DNA from: a virus
Virus record (IMG/VR): IMGVR_UViG_3300020385_000003
Span: 1 to 37,022 of that record
DNA: 37,022 nucleotides
Strand: one strand, 5' to 3'
Below the pieces are notes generated by a model. The model saw nothing but the letters and a program-made list of their open reading frames with translations. It made no database searches and was not told the DNA's origin. Each line of letters opens with the position of its first letter. Within the stretch, counting starts at the first letter, position 1. The position numbers were made by a program, and so were the translations under genes. Shown here piece after piece: positions 8,061 to 21,119 of the stretch.

Positions 8061-8588
8061 ATGAAGTATCCGCAAGCGTTTCTAATCGCGTTTGAGCGCG
8101 TGATTGGTCATGAAGGAAAGTATCAGAACCTATACGACGACCGTGGGAACTGGACAACGGGCGTCGTTGGCGAGGGTGAGCGTAAAGGTACTAAGTTTGG
8201 TATTGCTTCGATGAGTTACCCTCACCTCAATATTAAGCGGCTCACTATCGAGCAAGCTAAAGAGATTTACTACCGTGATTTCTGGCTCAAGCTTGGCGGT
8301 GAAGCGTTTCACAAGGCCGTGATGTATCAGTTATTCGATGCATCAATCAATCACGGTGGTTGGCGGGCTATTCGTTTCTTACAACGTGCCGTAGGCGCTA
8401 AAGACGATGGTTATTACGGCAGGCTCACCGAGGCAGCTATTAAAGCCTCTGATCACAATGATGTGCTTTTAAAGTTCTTAGCAGAGCGTTTGGACTTTAT
8501 GAACGACATTAAAGCGTGGTCTCAGTTCTCGCGTGGGTGGTCGCAACGAATTGCGGAAAACCTCCGCTTAGCAGCAATTGATAATTAA
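8061..8588 (+). CDS. Endolysin, GH108-type lysozyme with peptidoglycan-binding domain
   Basis: A 175-residue protein with a good ribosome binding site (TGGAG). Residues 1-90 match the glycoside hydrolase 108 (DUF847) pattern: FERVIGHEGKY with the catalytic Glu at residue 18, then YDDRGNWTTGVVGEGERKGTKFGI. The C-terminal half (about 95-150, YQLFDASINHGGWRAIRFLQRAVGAKDDGYYG) is the predicted peptidoglycan-binding domain 3. It cleaves the glycan backbone during lysis. There is no N-terminal signal or SAR segment, so release to the periplasm needs a holin; candidates are the product at 8662 and the one at 22562. It is followed at once by one of the five 22-bp palindromes. Confidence 0.92.
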   Translation: MKYPQAFLIAFERVIGHEGKYQNLYDDRGNWTTGVVGEGERKGTKFGIASMSYPHLNIKRLTIEQAKEIYYRDFWLKLGGEAFHKAVMYQLFDASINHGGWRAIRFLQRAVGAKDDGYYGRLTEAAIKASDHNDVLLKFLAERLDFMNDIKAWSQFSRGWSQRIAENLRLAAIDN

Positions 8589-8610
8589 TGTATATCATTG
8601 GTCATATACA
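8589..8610. repeat. 22-bp palindrome, copy 1 of 5 (candidate parS-like site)
   Basis: TGTATAT-N8-ATATACA with N8 = CATTGGTC. It starts at the base after the endolysin stop. The same palindrome with related N8 recurs at 12889, 14143, 23358 and 24397, always between genes. Confidence 0.8.
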
Positions 8611-8621
8611 TTTGTTTTTAG

Positions 8622-8648
8622 GGTGGCGTTAGCTGCCCTTTTTTATTG
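8622..8648 (+). terminator. Hairpin terminator after endolysin
   Basis: GGGTGGC and GCTGCCC pair (with two G-U pairs) around a 4-base loop, followed by six T. It lies between the palindrome and the membrane protein gene at 8662. Confidence 0.6.
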
Positions 8649-8661
8649 GAGAAACAACAAT

Positions 8662-8979
8662 ATGAAATACATTTTTGCTTTAGTTTTTGCACTGTTTTCT
8701 AGCCTAGCTTTAGCTGAGGCAACCCCTTTAACACCAGAAGAAGCAGGCTTGATTTTTGGCGCGATTAAATGGGTGGCGGGCGAGTATTACGCCATCGTTA
8801 TTCTTGGCTTGTTAGCGCTTGGGTTTATTTGGGCGCAGCTGAGACAGTTCATTAAACCAGAAACCTTAGCCAAAGCCCCTGATTGGTTGATCTCCATTTT
8901 AGAGTCTATCGCTGCCAACCGTGGACACGCTAAGAACGAGCTCGATAAGAACCCGATTCATTTTAAAAGAATGCAGTAA
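8662..8979 (+). CDS. Small membrane protein of the lysis cassette, candidate holin
   Basis: A 105-residue protein starting at ATG 8662 (MKYIFALVFALFSSLALAEA) with GGAG upstream. The in-frame upstream start at 8578 lies in the palindrome-terminator region and was discarded. The first 19 residues are a clear Sec signal peptide with an Ala-x-Ala-like cleavage site. A second hydrophobic helix lies around residues 45-62 (YYAIVILGLLALGFIWAQ). The cytoplasmic tail is charged. Between endolysin and spanins this is the normal holin or antiholin place. A second holin-like gene exists at 22562, so one of the two may be an antiholin or serve another role. It overlaps the next start in TAATG. Confidence 0.6.
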   Translation: MKYIFALVFALFSSLALAEATPLTPEEAGLIFGAIKWVAGEYYAIVILGLLALGFIWAQLRQFIKPETLAKAPDWLISILESIAANRGHAKNELDKNPIHFKRMQ

Positions 8980-9209
8980 TGCAGTATCTGAGAATCTTGT
9001 TAGGGGTATTGAAACTTGCCCCTTATATCGCGACGGCCTACCGAAAGTGGCAAGCAGCCAAAGCCCAAAAGCAGAAACAAGAACAGGTGAACTCTATTAA
9101 TGAAAGCCCGAAAGAAACTTTTGCTGATGAGTTTGGTGCTGCTTCTGGTAGCGTGCAGCTTACCACCGTCAAGCCCAAAAAATTGCCCCCCGACACCGAT
9201 AAACCTTGA
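8979..9209 (+). CDS. Inner-membrane spanin (Rz-like)
   Basis: A 76-residue protein. There is a hydrophobic N-terminal segment (YLRILLGVLKLAPYIATAY), then a Lys/Gln-rich predicted coiled coil (KWQAAKAQKQKQEQ) and a Pro-rich C-terminus. A lipoprotein gene is embedded in another frame from 9100, the hallmark of Rz/Rz1 pairs. i-spanins join an outer-membrane lipoprotein to fuse the two membranes in the last step of lysis. The sequence itself is too divergent to name. The call rests on the topology and the nested gene. Confidence 0.75.
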   Translation: MQYLRILLGVLKLAPYIATAYRKWQAAKAQKQKQEQVNSINESPKETFADEFGAASGSVQLTTVKPKKLPPDTDKP

Positions 9210-9315
9210 ATGGTATGAAGTGGAAGGAAGCAACGGGGCTTACTTCCCTGAACGCAGCTTTAAGAACTTGCAGCTTTATCTACTCGATCTTAAACAATGT
9301 GCCTCCCTAACATGA
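9100..9315 (+). CDS. Outer-membrane spanin lipoprotein (Rz1-like)
   Basis: A 71-residue protein with a typical lipoprotein signal: MKARKKLLLMSLVLLLVAC with the lipobox L-V-A-C and the lipidated Cys at residue 19. The mature part begins SLPPSSPKNCPPTP, the Pro-rich stretch usual for Rz1 proteins. The first 110 bases overlap the i-spanin gene in another frame. The C-terminus extends beyond it, so the pair is overlapping rather than fully embedded. The lipobox at this place makes the identification strong. Confidence 0.88.
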   Translation: MKARKKLLLMSLVLLLVACSLPPSSPKNCPPTPINLEWYEVEGSNGAYFPERSFKNLQLYLLDLKQCASLT

Positions 9316-9379
9316 GCTTTTAAAGCTTCGCGTAAACGGGGCAACTTCAACCCCAATCAATAATTAGCATTATAAAATC

Positions 9380-9416
9380 AAGCGCGGCGAGCCTTTCGGT
9401 TCGCCGCGCTTTTTTT
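9380..9416 (+). terminator. Strong terminator of the late (tail-lysis) transcription unit
   Basis: A stem of about twelve pairs (AGCGCGGCGA... / ...TCGCCGCGCT) with the loop TTTC, followed by seven T. It is the strongest hairpin in the window and closes the late operon. Confidence 0.92.
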
Positions 9417-9422
9417 GTTTGT

Positions 9423-9517
9423 GCTATCAATTTGTTTGTTGCCGGCTTTCTGCAGCGCGCCTCTTTGCTATCAATCAGGGCGACATCGAGCGTTTACCAG
9501 GATGAAAAATGCTATCA
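9423..9517 (+). repeat. 44-bp-spaced GCTATCA element, copy A
   Basis: GCTATCA occurs at 9423, 9467 and 9511, exactly 44 bases apart. Between the boxes are GTTGCCGGCTTTCTGCAG, GCGCGCCTCTTT and ATCGAGCG...TACCAGGAT, which are repeated almost unchanged at 33368-33462 and, in inverted orientation and for one unit, at 11204-11254. Confidence 0.85.
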
Positions 9518-9558
9518 CATACCAAAAGTCATTAAATTAAAATAGTTTGAATTTTTGG

Positions 9559-9587
9559 TTGAAAAATTCAAACAGTTTGAGTATTAT
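9559..9587 (+). promoter_or_regulatory. Sigma-70 promoter with built-in palindromes, copy 1
   Basis: -35 TTGAAA (9559-9564), a 17-base spacer, and -10 TATTAT (9582-9587). The spacer contains the palindrome TCAAAC-A-GTTTGA (9568-9580). A further inverted repeat, TTTGAATTTTT / AAAAATTCAAA, covers the -35 box. These are probable operators for a repressor. Confidence 0.8.
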
Positions 9588-9597
9588 TCTTTTCAGA

Positions 9598-9617
9598 GGT
9601 TAGAGAGGGCTCTAACC
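9598..9617 (+). promoter_or_regulatory. 5' leader hairpin, copy 1
   Basis: GGTTAGAG / CTCTAACC with the loop AGGG, in the transcribed leader about 10 bases after the expected start of transcription. It is conserved as a structure in copy 2, where one A is replaced by G so that A-U becomes a G-U pair. Confidence 0.75.
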
Positions 9618-9637
9618 CATCCAAAGGGATAAAAACA

Positions 9638-9916
9638 ATGAACAACTTCAATTCAGTAACTAAATCAATCTACTCTCTAAACAACCAAGCGCACCTAGAA
9701 GAACACAAAGAGCAATTCGAGCTTTCTTCTGATGAGTGGGCGGGTTTTCAGCAATGGAAAAGCGCAGGACGCAAGGTCGTAAAAGGTGCGAAAGGTTGTA
9801 AGATTTTTATGGTTTGTGAGAAGAAAATGGAAGCAAAAGAAGGCGAAGAGACAAAGAAACGCCAAGTTGTTAAAGCGCTATATGTTTTCAATCTGGATCA
9901 CACTGAAGAAGTCTAA
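9638..9916 (+). CDS. ArdC-like N-terminal domain protein (possible anti-restriction or ssDNA-binding)
   Basis: A 92-residue protein, first gene after promoter copy 1. Residues 30-88 read DEWAGFQQWKSAGRKVVKGAKGCKIF...VVKALYVFNLDHTEE, which fits the N-terminal domain of ArdC-type proteins (pattern W-x-x-F-x-Q-W-x-x-x-G-R-x-V-x-K-G-x-x-G-x-x-I, then V-F-N). Full ArdC proteins also have a metalloprotease domain with HExxH. This one stops after the ssDNA-binding-like part. Such short versions are frequent in phages and plasmids and may guard incoming DNA. Anti-restriction is an inference, not shown. The gene is in an island of five plus-strand genes that share one or two promoters. Confidence 0.6.
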   Translation: MNNFNSVTKSIYSLNNQAHLEEHKEQFELSSDEWAGFQQWKSAGRKVVKGAKGCKIFMVCEKKMEAKEGEETKKRQVVKALYVFNLDHTEEV

Positions 9917-9956
9917 CTAATAGAAAGGGGGTGAAAGCCCCCTTATAGGCGGAATT

Positions 9957-10220
9957 ATGTATTTTATAGTCGATACGAAAACTCAAGATGTTAAAGCCTA
10001 CGGCAAGCAAGGGGATGCGGCTCGCGCTGCATTAGCCTTACTTAATGTCTCTACGGGGCAGGGGAAAGACCCTGTAAAAGCATTTCGTGAATTGAATAGC
10101 GACGCGGTGGCGGTGCTGAATTTATCTGATGCTTTTGAATCTGTTGAACAAAGCGACAACCACGCCGCGCAAGAGTTAGCGCGCAGTTTTAAAGAGGCTG
10201 TCGAGGCTTTTTATGGGTAG
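9957..10220 (+). CDS. Hypothetical protein of the accessory island
   Basis: An 87-residue acidic protein with a start ATG preceded by AGGCGG. The first residues (MYFIVDTKTQDVKAYGKQGDA) form a probable beta-hairpin, followed by Ala-rich helices (ARAALALLNVSTG and QELARSFKEAVEAFYG). No signal peptide, membrane segment or catalytic motif is visible. The stop overlaps the next start by 8 bases, so the two are coupled and may act together. I do not recognise the family. Confidence 0.65.
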   Translation: MYFIVDTKTQDVKAYGKQGDAARAALALLNVSTGQGKDPVKAFRELNSDAVAVLNLSDAFESVEQSDNHAAQELARSFKEAVEAFYG

Positions 10221-10608
10221 TTCAGAAGTAATGAAACCTTATCAAGTTGCAAAAGAGGCGGGGCTTGACGGATTGAGTGAGCTTGCCGAGCTGAGCGAGC
10301 AGTCAGAGCAAACTTTGAATAACTGGTTTAAGAACCCGAATAAACGCAAGTTGTTCGATTGTGTGGTATTGGGTGCGGCGGTCATGAAGCGTCAACTAAC
10401 GGATAGCCCTTTAAAATATTGGGCTTACGGAACGGCTAGAATCGAGAAAAAACACGCATTGAATAGTGAGCGCTATTCTGATGATTTATTGAAGTTTGCG
10501 CGAGAGTGTTTAGAGCGTTTTCCGGCTTTTTTCAAACACCCTGATAATTGTGGTCGCGGTACGCCTCAAGCGGTAATAGAGGCAATTAGTGGTAATAAAT
10601 TAAAATAG
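10213..10608 (+). CDS. Possible helix-turn-helix regulator of the accessory island
   Basis: A 131-residue protein. Residues 7-50 (MKPYQVAKEAGLDGLSELAELSEQSEQTLNNWFKNPNKRKLF) have the spacing of a helix-turn-helix with a recognition helix at SEQTLNNWFKN. The rest (DCVVLGAAVMKRQ and further helices) is of unknown type. I chose the start at 10213, with GAGG 8 bases upstream and overlap with the previous gene; ATG 10231 is an alternative. Its stop TAG lies inside promoter copy 2, so the two elements are physically merged. It is a natural candidate for the protein that binds the palindromes in the two duplicated promoters. That is inference. Confidence 0.55.
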   Translation: MGSSEVMKPYQVAKEAGLDGLSELAELSEQSEQTLNNWFKNPNKRKLFDCVVLGAAVMKRQLTDSPLKYWAYGTARIEKKHALNSERYSDDLLKFARECLERFPAFFKHPDNCGRGTPQAVIEAISGNKLK

Positions 10609-11947: not shown

Positions 11948-11970
11948 TTATCCACAGCCACTTATCCACA
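11948..11970 (+). promoter_or_regulatory. Two perfect DnaA boxes, 14 bases apart
   Basis: TTATCCACA occurs at 11948-11956 and again at 11962-11970 in the same orientation. Perfect boxes are rare by chance, and a tandem pair suggests DnaA binding for replication or gene control. A third perfect box (opposite strand) is at 15894-15902 behind the replication gene. Confidence 0.7.
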
Positions 11971-12071: not shown

Positions 12072-12242
12072 TTAAATAGAGCTTGGTACTTCTAAGTTCT
12101 TCAACGCCTTTTCAAGTTTCCTCTCTATTTCAATAAACAAGCTCACCAAATGCTGTTGCTCCCAGTTTGTCGCTGCCTCACTCCCGCAAGCCGCTAATCC
12201 TTTCGCTTCTTCTAATAGTTCTAGGTTTTCGACCCCCTTCAT
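12072..12242 (-). CDS. Small 56-residue protein divergent to an XRE regulator; candidate antirepressor
   Basis: On the minus strand ATG (12240-12242) is preceded by AAGG at 8 bases. The protein begins MKGVENLELLEEAKGLAA and ends KALKNLEVPSSI. It is acidic and predicted all-helical, without signal peptide. It faces away from the regulator at 12550 across a 307-base intergenic region with an inverted repeat at 12326-12345. A small gene divergent to a DNA-binding regulator in a phage-plasmid decision region resembles the transcription-factor/small-protein pairs that inactivate CI repressors in Vibrio phages (VqmA-Qtip logic). Its C-terminal half weakly resembles the SOS-controlled protein at 14166. 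The antirepressor role is inference. Confidence 0.6.
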   Translation of the reverse strand: MKGVENLELLEEAKGLAACGSEAATNWEQQHLVSLFIEIERKLEKALKNLEVPSSI

Positions 12243-12549
12243 AGCTTTAGCCTTTTCGGTAAGTTAGTAGCCCTGTTAATAGCTGCTTTTAGCAGTAAGA
12301 CGTGCGAAAAGAGAATTAATTTGCAAAGTGATAGATTGGTCACTTGAGAGATTGCATAATAAGATTTTAGCCTAGAGTTATATAAAGCCATACTGAACCC
12401 ATTTATTTTTATTTTTTATAAAAGCTGTTGATTATTAATTAGTTAGCATATGCATCATATCCTCTATAAAACTAAGGTAAATAGCTTTGTCTTGGCTGGT
12501 CTCAATTTTGCTTATATAGGGTTTATATAGTCACTTTTAGGTGTTAGCT
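12243..12549. other. Divergent regulatory region between small gene and XRE gene
   Basis: AT-rich, 307 bases, no gene. It contains the inverted repeat AAGTGA-N8-TCACTT (12326-12345), a hairpin CTGC/GCAG near 12285, the palindrome GCATATGC near 12449 and two close TTATATAG-type repeats just before the XRE start. Confidence 0.6.
12326..12345. promoter_or_regulatory. Inverted repeat, candidate operator of the divergent pair
   Basis: A perfect 6-base inverted repeat AAGTGA / TCACTT with an 8-base centre (20 bp in all). It lies about 84 bases upstream of the small gene and 205 upstream of the XRE gene. The size suits an XRE dimer. Confidence 0.5.
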
Positions 12550-12879
12550 ATGTCACATCAAAGCTTAATGGTCGCTATAAAAAGAAGACGAGAACGCGAG
12601 CATATAACACAAATGGATGTGGCTAGGGGAATCGGAATTAGCAGGCGACATTATGTTAGGTGTGAATCCGGTCAGGCAGAGTTGAAGCTGTCGCAATTTG
12701 TAGCAGCAATGAACTTTTTGAACATGACTTATCTAGATTTGGCTCTGGATATGCTCAATCTTGCGCCTGTTACGGCTTGGGATGTAGCGGCTGCTGCAAG
12801 AACTTTGACAGCGGCATCTAGAAAATCATTAGTAGAGTTTTTGATGAGAAATCATGAGGATAAAGAAAAGGGCAGCTAG
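12550..12879 (+). CDS. XRE-family helix-turn-helix transcription regulator
   Basis: A 109-residue protein. ATG 12550 is preferred, with TAGGTG 6 bases upstream; the in-frame GTG at 12541 overlaps that site. Residues 5-62 are a Cro/CI-type helix-turn-helix: AIKRRREREHITQMDVARGIGISRRHYVRCESGQAELKLSQF, with the turn at G-I-S. The second half (AWDVAAAARTLTAASRKSLVEFLMRN) is helical and may dimerise or sense a signal. No peptidase domain is present, so it is not a classical CI. It lies divergently to the 56-residue gene. A 22-bp palindrome follows its stop. A role as the activator or repressor of the small gene is inferred from layout. Confidence 0.8.
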   Translation: MSHQSLMVAIKRRREREHITQMDVARGIGISRRHYVRCESGQAELKLSQFVAAMNFLNMTYLDLALDMLNLAPVTAWDVAAAARTLTAASRKSLVEFLMRNHEDKEKGS

Positions 12880-12910: not shown

Positions 12911-13318
12911 TTATCTTTGAGCGCGAGCCATAGAGAGCTTTGCCTCTCTAATCATTTCTACTTTTTCCTCGTCACTCAGCTTTTCGTAAGCTCGTAAAGC
13001 CGCGCGCATTTGGGTGTTGTTGCTCAGGTCGTCTTTACCACCAAGGCGATCATAGAATAACTCAGTACCTGCAATGCGCTTTGCTGCATCGGTCATGATG
13101 GTTTTCTCTTCACCGCTAATTCTAAACGGTACTGGCGAAAGCTTTGTGGTTGGCGTAACACCAAAAGTTTCATTTCGTTTTGGCTTAGGTGCGGCTGCTT
13201 TTTCTTCTTTCTTTGCTAGTCGTTCAAGGCTTTTGAGTTTCGCTTTTTCTGCTGGTTTAAGTTCGCGAGTTGGTTTTGCCTTTAACTCTTCCAGTAGCGC
13301 TATTTCTTCGTTAGTCAT
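12911..13318 (-). CDS. ParB-like partner of ParA (centromere-binding protein candidate)
   Basis: A 135-residue basic protein whose ATG overlaps the parA stop by 8 bases, so the two are co-translated. The N-terminal half is a charged, Lys/Pro/Ala-rich linker (LKPAEKAKLKSLERLAKKEEKAAAPKPKRN). The C-terminal half (VPFRISGEEKTIMTDAAKRIAG...) may fold as a small DNA-binding domain. There is no canonical ParB HTH domain, which is usual for the small partner proteins of type Ib partition systems. It probably binds the palindromes at 12889 and 14143 that flank the operon. This is inferred from location. No other function fits the operon. Confidence 0.7.
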   Translation of the reverse strand: MTNEEIALLEELKAKPTRELKPAEKAKLKSLERLAKKEEKAAAPKPKRNETFGVTPTTKLSPVPFRISGEEKTIMTDAAKRIAGTELFYDRLGGKDDLSNNTQMRAALRAYEKLSDEEKVEMIREAKLSMARAQR

Positions 13319-14087
13319 TGATCACCTCCGCCGCTAGATTGCTGTAGTAACGAGCTGCTACGTGACCTTTGTTAAATACTGACAAAGGTAAATGTTCGCG
13401 TTCTGCATCGTCGAAAACTGACCTATCCATGATTTTGGTTTTAGCTACTTTGTCAGGCCATCGCTCTAGTGTGTAGCTTTCACCATATTCGTTTTTGCGT
13501 TTCTTACGGTTATCAATCTTCACGGGCAAAACGGTGTAGTTAATCTCATCCTCTTCAATGAACAATACATCTTGAATATGAGTGAGTAGCTTCTCTATTC
13601 CATCAATAGAGTGCTCGCTGTAGTCGGTTGGGAAAATGAACTCAGTTGCCGCATTAATTGCGTTAAGTCCAAGTACGCTTGTTCCTGGTTGTGTGTCGAT
13701 AACGACAAAATCAAACGGTTCGCTGATCTTTTGGAGCTGCAGCTTAAGGCGTTCCTCTCGCTTAGGAGCTGAGAATAAATCCATGTCTAATTTAGTCATG
13801 GCATCATCAAAGCGAGCAGGGATGATAAATAGGTTTTCTTGAATTTCACCGTTTACAAGGGCGGGGTAGATAGCTTGGTTAATATCAAACTTTCTATCTA
13901 GGAGAACATCCCCAAGGTAATGCGGGGTTTCATCTTCTAAATAAAATTTGGTGGTATCGCCTTGTCCGTCAAAGTCGATAATAAGGGTGCGTTTCTTCTT
14001 CTTGCTAAGTTCGTGCGCTAGGTTCACGGCGGTAGTAGTCTTAGTAACCCCGCCTTTGCCATTGCCTACAGTAATGATTCGAGTCAT
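13311..14087 (-). CDS. parA: ParA-family partition ATPase
   Basis: A 258-residue ATPase for plasmid segregation. The deviant Walker A motif is KGGVTKTTT at residues 11-19, with Thr in place of the usual Gly before the second Lys. The A' motif is IIDFDGQGDTT (about 37-47) and Walker B is VVIDTQPGTS (about 130-139). The lack of an N-terminal DNA-binding extension places it with the short type Ib ParA proteins. It is transcribed leftward with the ParB-like gene. The upstream region carries a 22-bp palindrome at 14143-14164, a likely place for autoregulation. A partition pair in a phage genome is strong evidence that the prophage is maintained as a plasmid. Confidence 0.93.
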   Translation of the reverse strand: MTRIITVGNGKGGVTKTTTAVNLAHELSKKKKRTLIIDFDGQGDTTKFYLEDETPHYLGDVLLDRKFDINQAIYPALVNGEIQENLFIIPARFDDAMTKLDMDLFSAPKREERLKLQLQKISEPFDFVVIDTQPGTSVLGLNAINAATEFIFPTDYSEHSIDGIEKLLTHIQDVLFIEEDEINYTVLPVKIDNRKKRKNEYGESYTLERWPDKVAKTKIMDRSVFDDAEREHLPLSVFNKGHVAARYYSNLAAEVIND

Positions 14088-14165: not shown

Positions 14166-14363
14166 TTATTTATTGTTAACGGTTTCTGCTTTCTGGATAT
14201 GCTTTTGGCACTCCCTACCAAGTCGTTCGATAACCTGAAAGCAGAGTGCTAAAGTGGGTTGATCTATCTGTTCAGCGGATTCACCTGCTGCGGTTGCAAC
14301 GGCTGTGAGTTGCTGTGTTTTGACTTCTGCGCGCTGCAGATGCTCGTTAGCATCGAAATTCAT
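14166..14363 (-). CDS. SOS-controlled 65-residue protein; candidate antirepressor
   Basis: ATG at 14361-14363 has AGAGGT upstream. An in-frame start 18 bases earlier is less likely. The protein (MNFDANEHLQRAEVKTQQLT, then GESAEQIDQPTLALCFQVIERL, ending AETVNNK) is predicted helical and soluble. A near-perfect LexA box lies 30 bases before the start and overlaps the probable -10 TATAAA, so the gene should be silent until DNA damage. Because the CI-like repressor at 20177 seems unable to cleave itself, an SOS-induced small antirepressor is needed to explain damage-induced growth, as with Tum of phage 186. This gene is the best candidate. The role is inferred. Confidence 0.65.
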   Translation of the reverse strand: MNFDANEHLQRAEVKTQQLTAVATAAGESAEQIDQPTLALCFQVIERLGRECQKHIQKAETVNNK

Positions 14364-14392
14364 GACTACCTCTAGAAACAATAGAATTTATA

Positions 14393-14408
14393 CTGTATAT
14401 TTAAACAG
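14393..14408 (-). promoter_or_regulatory. LexA (SOS) box
   Basis: CTGT-ATATTTAA-ACAG, with TA before and TG after, is almost the E. coli consensus CTGT-N8-ACAG flanked by A/T. It overlaps the likely promoter of the minus-strand gene at 14166. It is the only such box I found in the window. Confidence 0.85.
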
Positions 14409-14784
14409 TGTTATTCATTCATTTCCATAAGAAATTTTAGGAACATCAATAAGAAATAGAAGATCGTTTATTTGCCAATCATCTACACTAAAATGCTTAT
14501 CAGGGTTGTTTTTGATGGTTTTTAATTACCAAGATTGATGCTATAGCTCATTTTTGAGCCTTTATTGGGTGGGTGGGGGTTTATAGGATAAGATCATTTG
14601 CTCAAAAACCTCTGTACATAAGGTTTCAAATAAGATAGTCGTTGCTCCCGATCTCCCTAAACGCTAATATATACACATCCGAGGCGCTTTTCGTAGGGCG
14701 CTTAACAAAAACAAGGTTCATTTCTTCCTTTGTTTTTGATTCGGGGAGCTGTGCCAGGTGGTGCTGAACAGCGAACAAATTGAC

Positions 14785-18953: not shown

Positions 18954-19481
18954 ATGAATCGCCTCCAAAAACTACATCAAGACTTGCAAGCAACCACCAA
19001 AGCCAAAGAAGTGAATAACGTTCACCTGGCTAACATTACGGGCTTTAGTCGTCCGTCGATTTCCGAAGCTATCCGAAAGGGAAAGATCAACAATCGAATG
19101 AACCGAGTTTTAGACCTGGTTGATTTGGTTATTGGCGCTTACGACATCACATCACTTTGGGAGCTGGCAGAGCCAAACCAAGGCGCTGCTCAAATTGATA
19201 TGCGCGCTTGGATTTCTAAGAAAGTGGATAAACAGCTTTCGGCTTGTCGCGTTCTTGAAGAAAACCAGCTAGATATCGTTGATGTTTACGGTAGGCCAGA
19301 AATGCCAGAATGGTTACCTCTGCAGTTCCAAGATGAAGCTGAGAAATTAACTGATGAGCAGCTACATGAAGTGGTGAAGATTGGCGAGATTTCACAACAA
19401 GGTGCTATCGGTGCATTCAAAGAATTAATAAAAAATTCGTCAGAAATCGACGCGAAAGGAAGTACGGAGCAGCCAAAATGA
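18954..19481 (+). CDS. Helix-turn-helix regulator of the early operon
   Basis: A 175-residue protein with ribosome binding site AGGGTG. Residues 18-45 (KEVNNVHLANITGFSRPSISEAIRKGKI) form a helix-turn-helix with the turn at G-F-S. The rest is helical, with a middle segment 'DMRAWISKKVDKQLSACRVLEENQLDIVDVYG'. No peptidase motif is present. It lies downstream of a three-box operator cluster (18878-18920), so it may autoregulate or oppose CI. A Cro-, Apl- or CII-like task is possible. The family is not recognised. It overlaps the next gene by 4 bases. Confidence 0.65.
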   Translation: MNRLQKLHQDLQATTKAKEVNNVHLANITGFSRPSISEAIRKGKINNRMNRVLDLVDLVIGAYDITSLWELAEPNQGAAQIDMRAWISKKVDKQLSACRVLEENQLDIVDVYGRPEMPEWLPLQFQDEAEKLTDEQLHEVVKIGEISQQGAIGAFKELIKNSSEIDAKGSTEQPK

Positions 19482-20154: not shown

Positions 20155-20178
20155 AAAAATCGTCAGATTTCGACGGTT
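20153..20178 (-). terminator. Terminator of the CI gene (minus strand)
   Basis: The stem CGTC / GACG is flanked by weaker pairs. On the minus strand it is followed by seven T. It overlaps the cI stop and separates the two convergent units. Confidence 0.65.
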
Positions 20179-20746
20179 AACCATTGCCAACCCAACCGAC
20201 AACGCGCCCTATTACTTCACCTTTCTCTATGGTTTCAAACTCATTATTTGCAGGAACGTATTTTCCACGGTACTTGCGTCTAAAGTGGAATGTGCCACCT
20301 GCTTTAACAATCACCAAAGTATTGTCGTTAACTGATTTCATTGGCTCTACGATGATGAAACAACCCACAGGGTAATTCATAGCAAAGTCAGGGGAGATCA
20401 TTGCAGCGTCACGAACCTTAAGTGCGTAGCTTTCAAGCTTGGTTCCATTTGGATAGAACACAGTGCCTTGCGGTTCTGGTTCTTCTTTACCGATATCAGC
20501 CCAGTTCAAAATATTCACATTCTTAGTGTGATAACCGTGTGTTTCTTCCGTTTCCATACGGGTGACAAACTCACCTAAAGTGATGTTCATTTTTCTCAGT
20601 GCGCGGATAAGTACCTGTGTTGGTAAATCGCCTTCACCCTGCTCAAATCTGCCGATAGTCGCACGGCTTGCAATACCAATGAAATCCTTCTGTTTCAGTT
20701 TCTTTGATTTTCGGATTGCTGCAAAAACCTCATGTGCTTCTGGCAT
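20177..20746 (-). CDS. cI: CI/LexA-like phage repressor with a seemingly dead S24 peptidase
   Basis: A 189-residue protein. The start at MPEAHEVFAAIRKSKKLK (ATG 20744-20746) has AGGAG 7 bases upstream; a longer frame to 20782 lacks this. Residues 5-60 are a Cro/CI helix-turn-helix (QKDFIGIASRATIGRFEQG). Residues 95-189 align by eye with the S24 peptidase domain (ALKV-RDAAM-ISP...GCFIIVEP...VVGWV). Where family members have G-D/N-S-M, this one has D-A-A-M: the nucleophile Ser is Ala115. The strand with the general-base Lys reads F-R-R-K (155-158), and no Ala-Gly cleavage site is visible in the hinge (NILNWADIGKEE). It should bind operators and dimerise but not self-cleave, so induction needs another protein. 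Confidence 0.85.
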   Translation of the reverse strand: MPEAHEVFAAIRKSKKLKQKDFIGIASRATIGRFEQGEGDLPTQVLIRALRKMNITLGEFVTRMETEETHGYHTKNVNILNWADIGKEEPEPQGTVFYPNGTKLESYALKVRDAAMISPDFAMNYPVGCFIIVEPMKSVNDNTLVIVKAGGTFHFRRKYRGKYVPANNEFETIEKGEVIGRVVGWVGNG

Positions 20747-21119
20747 GGTTTTACTCCTATACTTGCCCCGAAAGGGCGGCAACTCATTGTATTTATGTGT
20801 GTTTAATCAAATCGCTCAGAAAAAGCGCGCAGTAAGCCACTGGTAAGCCCCAGTTTTTTTATTATTTTTTTATGTTCCGTTTTATTTGATTATAAAACAT
20901 CTCGTGATCATAAGAACGTTTTTAGAGTGTTTTTTACCGTTAAAATCACTATATGTTACAAATGAAAACCTTTTGATGACGGTGTGAAGACACGGTGATT
21001 CAATATTCAGCTTTGTGCGTTCCTCTCGTAATTGGCTAAGCCAACCTCAAAACATTGTTCAAACATAGGTATAACTCACTACCCACTGTCGAAAATCTAC
21101 GCTAAAATAAAGCTCAAAT
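20747..21119. other. Divergent control region between cI and the 21120 operon
   Basis: 373 bases without a gene, AT-rich. It holds a 20-bp inverted repeat GTTTTAT-N6-ATAAAAC (20879-20898), one TGATCA (20905-20910), a tandem GTAAGCC pair 11-13 bases apart near 20831-20848, and at the right end the TGTCGAAAAT-NN-ACGCT box (21087) 33 bases before the start of the 21120 gene. CI operators are expected here. Confidence 0.55.
20879..20898. promoter_or_regulatory. Inverted repeat, candidate CI operator
   Basis: GTTTTAT / ATAAAAC, perfect over 7 bases with a 6-base centre. It is 133 bases upstream of the cI start, in the divergent region. Confidence 0.45.

Follow-up and report, generated by a model that had tools for sequence, protein, structure and literature searches.

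An XRE-type transcription factor gene and a divergent small open reading frame (smORF) of 56 codons are separated by a region that holds a pair of putative operator half-sites, a predicted promoter and a leader ORF, and the whole arrangement adjoins a parAB partition locus (Table 1). The window analysed here, 37,022 nt in length, is the complete IMG/VR virus record IMGVR_UViG_3300020385_000003, and its genes include those for a contractile tail, ParA, an integrase and a CI repressor of the S24 type. Both ends of the record carry identical bases, forming a 28-nt terminal repeat, the closest relatives, 36-46 kb in size, are circular plasmids from Vibrio parahaemolyticus, V. alfacsensis and V. 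campbellii, and the TelN protelomerase (PF16684) had no match in either the window or the relatives' phage and plasmid records. Hence the window is best read as a circular phage-plasmid, and a linear telomere (plasmid-like) phage is not supported. A DNA search of the phage collection returned zero matches. The first-pass annotation had placed the XRE and small genes within a plasmid-maintenance region, which is borne out by the adjoining parAB genes (ParA, 13311-14087, matches phrog_164 with E=8e-55), and parAB likewise adjoins the pair in circular phage-plasmids of Vibrio. To the left of the module, as in several relatives, two perfect DnaA boxes (TTATCCACA) at 11948 and 11962 (together spanning 11948-11970) possibly mark a replication origin.

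Table 1. Features of the window that bear on the putative induction module, with the evidence for each (., no strand).
Feature	Coordinates	Strand	Evidence
smORF, 56-aa helical hairpin, putative CI antirepressor	12072..12242	-	Codon conservation in 9 loci; AF2 model; tracks CI
Leader ORF, 50 codons, stop overlaps smORF start (ATGA)	12239..12391	-	Open, exactly 50 codons in 11/11 loci
Predicted promoter toward leader ORF and smORF, TTTACC-16-TATGAT	12454..12481	-	Same offset in 11 close loci
Putative XRE operator half-site 1, GTCTC	12499..12503	+	31-bp spaced pair; just upstream of smORF promoter -35
Putative XRE operator half-site 2, GTCAC	12530..12534	+	31-bp spaced pair; adjoins XRE ribosome-binding site
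XRE transcription factor, 109 aa, putative activator, TF63-like	12550..12879	+	HTH_3; dN/dS values; AF2 fold neighbours
parB-like and parA genes (partition), outside the switch	12911..14087	-	Pfam/phrog matches; smORF not tracked by ParA
65-aa small protein, putative SOS-driven antirepressor of CI, phrog_37129 (function unknown)	14166..14363	-	dN/dS values; tracks CI
LexA box TACTGTATATTTAAACAGTG before 65-aa gene	14391..14410	.	Only such site in window
Phage repressor CI, HTH and S24-like domain, putative target; catalytic Ser/Lys replaced by Ala/Arg	20177..20746	-	Pfam S24; lambda CI alignment

The XRE gene has the coordinates and the DNA-binding domain originally assigned to it (HTH_3, E=1.6e-6). 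As its other hits were confined to HTH_31 and HTH_19, this 109-aa protein is without a match of the VqmA quorum-sensing receptor type, and so remains, as had been said of it, unrecognisable as VqmA. Its codon-level constraint (dN 0.073, dS 1.10) is on a par with that of the smORF, and its AlphaFold2 model is that of an HTH protein, with ClgR, C.Esp1396I, C.BclI and HipB nearest and SinR among the neighbours. Profile searches place it in a family of many members from Vibrio phages and plasmids, with 39-45% identity and the motif TPWDVAAAARTL. In most of these members, an ORF of 53-74 codons is transcribed divergently, its start as a rule 115-200 nt away from that of XRE, and this arrangement is found in L001-L003, L005, L017-L022 and others. 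On the 3' side of the XRE gene in the window come a terminator-like hairpin and the convergent parB-like gene.

The tiny helical protein gene that the first-pass annotation had proposed proved to be real. Its frame is conserved at exactly 56 codons in nine loci, with changes at third positions dominating (11, 10 and 48 variable columns at codon positions 1, 2 and 3; chi-square p=1.4e-9) and a mean dN of 0.081 against a dS of 0.95. Three of the plasmids already carry it as an annotated gene, and its AlphaFold2 model is a two-helix hairpin (pLDDT 90.6). A PDB search with this fold yielded nothing beyond generic helical hairpins, at E about 1, no relatives of the smORF were found in the phage collection, and no toxin family matched it. 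Homology to the SGDD-type smORFs of other phages was considered and rejected (hhalign probability 0.7%), as only size and position are held in common. At another locus (L035:9361-9854), tandem related smORFs of 58 and 66 codons lie upstream of a single XRE gene.

The DNA between the two genes is organised with a conserved geometry. An inverted repeat had been reported there, although only weak ones exist (an 11-nt repeat of 91% with arms 129 nt apart, and a 13-nt palindrome of 77%), and the conserved feature is instead a pair of G(T/A)C-type half-sites before the XRE gene, spaced by exactly 31 bp in 19 loci, the remaining spacings between 24 and 41 accounting for zero or one locus each. Where close relatives had no strict half-site match, alignment revealed an altered second site at the equivalent position. 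Facing the small gene is a promoter element, TTTAC(C/G)-16-TAT(G/T)AT, at an identical offset in 11/11 close loci, while many distant loci have the form TTTAC(A/T)-17/18-CATA(T/G)T. This half-site pair and the conserved promoter are new here. The putative operator also varies together with its reader: the recognition helix is SRRHYVRCE in the XRE protein of the window, in contrast to SLKTYQRIE in most phages of the GTCCT type, and this difference goes in step with that between the half-sites of the two phage types. Chromosomal XRE relatives (L048, L050-L057) keep GTC-type sites, and are without a comparable divergent small ORF or a LexA box.

Between this promoter and the smORF lies a 50-codon ORF, overlooked by the first-pass annotation, the stop of which overlaps the small gene's start. 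Because there is no constraint at the level of the peptide (46, 40 and 40 variable columns at the three codon positions; dN/dS about 0.7), it is not called a protein gene. Nevertheless, the frame has stayed open despite this divergence: in a neutral simulation on its own tree, all ten relatives remained open in 0 of 5000 runs, and a conservative pairwise product over five disjoint pairs gave 1.9e-3. Hence it is read as a translated leader, which would couple its translation to that of the smORF through the ATGA overlap. In most other phages, this slot is occupied directly by the start of the smORF, and a 50-codon leader with an ATGA overlap before the small gene is likewise new here. A hairpin that clearly sequesters the Shine-Dalgarno sequence of the smORF is seen in L001-L003; the window gives no such clear picture, and this explanation was therefore dropped for it.

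The likely partner of the small protein lies elsewhere in the genome. The CI profile aligns with lambda CI (E=5e-17), and, in lambda numbering, S149 has become alanine and K192 arginine in the window. The catalytic lysine is replaced by arginine in all eight CI proteins compared (those of the window, six relatives and L049), whereas the serine position is alanine in the window and the six relatives, but retains serine in L049. With the catalytic dyad lost, the CI of the window looks unable to cleave itself, a property that the first-pass annotation had not remarked upon. No CI operators were recognised in 20740-21119. A 175-aa HTH protein encoded at 18954-19481 is 66-90% conserved in phages sharing this CI, and in L062 (V. 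sp. S9_S30) the CI gene contains an in-frame TAG, yet retains the catalytic serine.

Among 17 phages, the similarity of the smORF tracks that of CI with rho of 0.89, falling only to 0.88 given ParA and to 0.82 given XRE, whereas smORF and ParA, despite the closer position of the latter gene, correlate at 0.10 once CI is taken into account. Because the sequences compared are related, and two main clusters account for part of these values, the correlations were also calculated within classes, and smORF and CI still covary in the class other than that of the window (Mantel 0.45, p=0.002). The confounding effect of linkage is broken by two discordant loci. In L049, ParA (21%) and XRE (39%) are distant from those of the window, but the smORF (47%) and CI (82%) are not; in L005, ParA (62%) and XRE (44%) are retained, while the smORF and CI are unrelated. 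L005 and L030 similarly have ParA in common at 62-64%, but not the smORF or CI. CI and the smORF also co-occur in the same plasmids, with the sole exception of L004. This pattern favours the CI of its own phage as the putative target of the smORF, and suggests that XRE and its operator, on the input side, have been exchanged separately from the output side, formed by smORF and CI, as in L049.

It would be an alternative for the smORF to act on XRE rather than on CI, as a feedback inhibitor or co-factor in the manner of SinI on SinR, the pair then forming a self-contained regulator of another phage gene. The divergent genes with their shared operator, and the likeness of the XRE model to SinR, would suit such an arrangement. 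Yet the smORF tracks CI far better than it tracks XRE, with correlations in the other class of 0.0 between smORF and XRE, and of -0.4 between XRE and CI, and in L049 the smORF and CI are of the window's class although the XRE is distant. We therefore regard action on XRE as unlikely.

The model that we favour, and which is probably correct, is that of a lysis-induction module of the TF63 type. Firstly, XRE would bind the pair of intergenic half-sites, which lie 31 bp apart, and, once bound, would activate the promoter at 12454-12481. Secondly, the resulting transcript would carry the leader ORF translationally coupled to the 56-aa smORF. Thirdly, the hairpin protein would bind its own phage's CI and inactivate it without cleavage. 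Fourthly, this loss of CI activity would end lysogeny, with no need for DNA damage. The direction of control by XRE could conceivably be the reverse, such that XRE mainly represses the smORF promoter to keep lysogeny, and its loss or inactivation, rather than any induction, frees the small protein. Half-site 2 overlaps the XRE leader, which suggests autorepression, and sequence cannot tell activation from repression. Half-site 1, however, is upstream of the -35 element of the smORF promoter (12476-12481), where an activator would be expected to sit, and TF63 and TF72, which have the same layout, activate their smORFs (PMC10432266), making a repressor role for XRE decidedly unlikely.

The comparison with known systems supports induction through CI. 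XRE-type transcription factor-smORF modules were described in 2023 (Silpe et al., PMC10432266), in which a par-adjacent XRE-like transcription factor and a counter-oriented smORF of 156-183 nt were shown to bring about CI inactivation and lysis of lysogens. Hence VqmA-Qtip of phage VP882 is not the nearest parallel, and the suggestion that the locus may be a new module does not hold for its kind, which was already known. The window shares with VP882 the logic of a transcription factor driving a small antirepressor in a Vibrio plasmid phage, but differs in having an XRE protein rather than a quorum-sensing receptor, a 56-aa hairpin rather than the 79-aa Qtip, and a position away from repA-telN. 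TF63-smORF63, of Vibrio cyclitrophicus 1F-97 phage 63, and TF72-smORF72 are closer. In both, a small XRE-like transcription factor has the same fold neighbours as here, namely C proteins and ClgR, and the counter-oriented smORFs are of 183 and 171 nt respectively, compared with 171 nt in the window; also common to them and the window are a plasmid-like Vibrio phage as host genome and a smORF for which no homologues occur elsewhere, and the module of phage 63, like that of the window, is par-adjacent (PMC10432266). This likeness is one of layout, fold neighbours and size, with the homology to TF63 indirect. The window also has its transcription factor and counter-oriented small ORF in one of the settings typical of such modules, near repA-telN or parAB. 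The par-associated XRE and counter-oriented smORF of the XRE-LuxR-smORF systems of Aeromonas phages ARM81ld and Apop are likewise similar (PMC10432266), but the window is without a LuxR partner, having the terminator-like hairpin and convergent parB-like gene after XRE.

Hence the logic put forward in the first-pass annotation holds, with layout, fold neighbours and size matching TF63-smORF63, and by this analogy the module most likely belongs to the TF63-smORF63 kind. It is nonetheless a variant outside the 2023 paper, its supplementary tables aside. Unlike in the TF63 and TF72 systems, the phage is circular without TelN, the Ser-Lys dyad is missing from CI, the smORF has a leader ORF ahead of it, the recognition helix departs from that of the majority type, and a second, LexA-boxed small protein tracks the same CI. 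Silpe et al. selected phages with an autoproteolytic CI, a property that is external to the mechanism and that the window, judged by the absent dyad, does not have; phages with non-proteolytic repressors were excluded because their induction requires other, unknown factors (PMC10432266).

This second small protein was also overlooked in the first-pass annotation. The window contains only one strong LexA box, none being found in 100 shuffles, and it precedes the 65-aa gene by 27 nt, a spacing kept at 27-28 nt in 13/13 homologues (twelve relatives). The gene is constrained (dN 0.06, dS 1.2) and occurs in the same four plasmids as CI. A LexA box accompanies the XRE-smORF pair in 24/24 counted phage loci, from which loci with short flanks and those of the L041-L044 type were left out, as against 0/9 chromosomal XRE loci (182 kb). 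This regular presence of a LexA box is new here, as are the tracking of CI by the smORF and the loss of both lambda-type catalytic residues from CI. Where the box is traceable, an ORF of 62-83 aa comes next, with a shared pattern in most phages. In the class other than that of the window, the LexA-boxed proteins correlate with CI (Mantel 0.78, p=0.0002), and less with ParA (0.32, p=0.06). In Gifsy phages (GfoA and GfhA; PMC3121763), and in 186 (Tum) and N15 (its antirepressor), a LexA-boxed small protein encoded outside the immunity region acts on an uncleaved repressor. As the 65-aa gene has a LexA box at its promoter, and CI appears non-cleavable from its residue losses, this protein likely has the role of a LexA-controlled antirepressor of this type, and it probably supplies the damage input against the same CI. 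For those phages, the LexA-driven input is the sole one described, whereas the window adds a small protein under an XRE promoter. The proposal that a transcription factor disables CI independently of damage is therefore upheld in its logic, by the operator and promoter, the co-variation of smORF and CI, and the agreement with TF63-smORF63, while the damage input is probably provided by a separate protein.

The two small proteins resemble one another in the window's phage class (hhalign P=0.0013 over 28 columns), with a mean z of 3.5 compared with 0.3 for mismatched classes, which suggests common ancestry or a common target, albeit unproven. At one further locus (L034:1882-2170), the interval between XRE and its adjacent smORF contains a LexA box, 44 nt ahead of that smORF, and both inputs may there meet on one small gene.

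The distribution of the module argues against functions tied to the plasmid. In the close family, the chromosomal prophages L045 and L046 carry the XRE-smORF pair next to tail genes; there (about 8300-10560), a LexA-boxed gene accompanies the pair, and a distance of some 21 kb separates these genes from CI, located on the same contig. The first-pass annotation had proposed seeking alternatives at the same site in other Vibrio phage-plasmids. L005 has an unrelated smORF, and L004 has the cassette corresponding to 12078-12837 swapped for unrelated DNA, while its flanks are 88% and its CI 97.5% identical. The module is thus dispensable for the L004 element, in which tail genes are duplicated and which may be a defective plasmid. 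The replacement DNA (L004:4131-4632, V. campbellii LJC011 plasmid unnamed4) includes a 56-aa ORF; in another plasmid of this strain (L006:6001-6134, unnamed2), only 134 bp of the left flank is in common, and umuD lies beside the cassette site in both, possibly marking a site of recombination.

It is very unlikely that the pair is a toxin-antitoxin or plasmid-stability cassette, with XRE as antitoxin or regulator and the small protein as toxin, for which the adjacent parAB and the weak similarity of XRE to the HipB, PezA and Y4mF antitoxins could be cited. The genes are divergent rather than in the single operon expected of type II systems, antitoxin models score far below curated cut-offs, no toxin family is matched, a toxin would have no reason to track CI, and the pair also occurs in the chromosomal prophages, where ParA is absent to a distance of 10 kb. 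A part in partition or copy control, as an accessory par regulator with a parS-like site, is just as improbable in spite of the neighbouring parAB and the flanking DnaA boxes, since ParA tracks neither the smORF nor XRE, L045 and L046 have the module without ParA nearby, and the L004 cassette was cleanly replaced beside a ParA of 99% identity.

Induction through CI, by contrast, extends to a broader hypothesis, the case for which is evenly balanced: that a single non-cleavable CI is met by two cognate, and possibly paralogous, helical-hairpin antirepressors, one responding to DNA damage through the LexA box and the other to a different cue through the XRE promoter, with input and output sides exchanged independently. 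The locus thereby offers concrete candidates for both inputs in phages with non-proteolytic repressors, together with a testable rule, that each small protein matches its own CI, and a defined putative operator for the transcription factor. The natural recombinants L049, L004 and L034 separate input from output, and a simple reporter makes it possible to search for the cue to which XRE responds. If true, the hypothesis would account for the ability of a phage whose repressor is not cleavable to respond to a second cue as well as to DNA damage.
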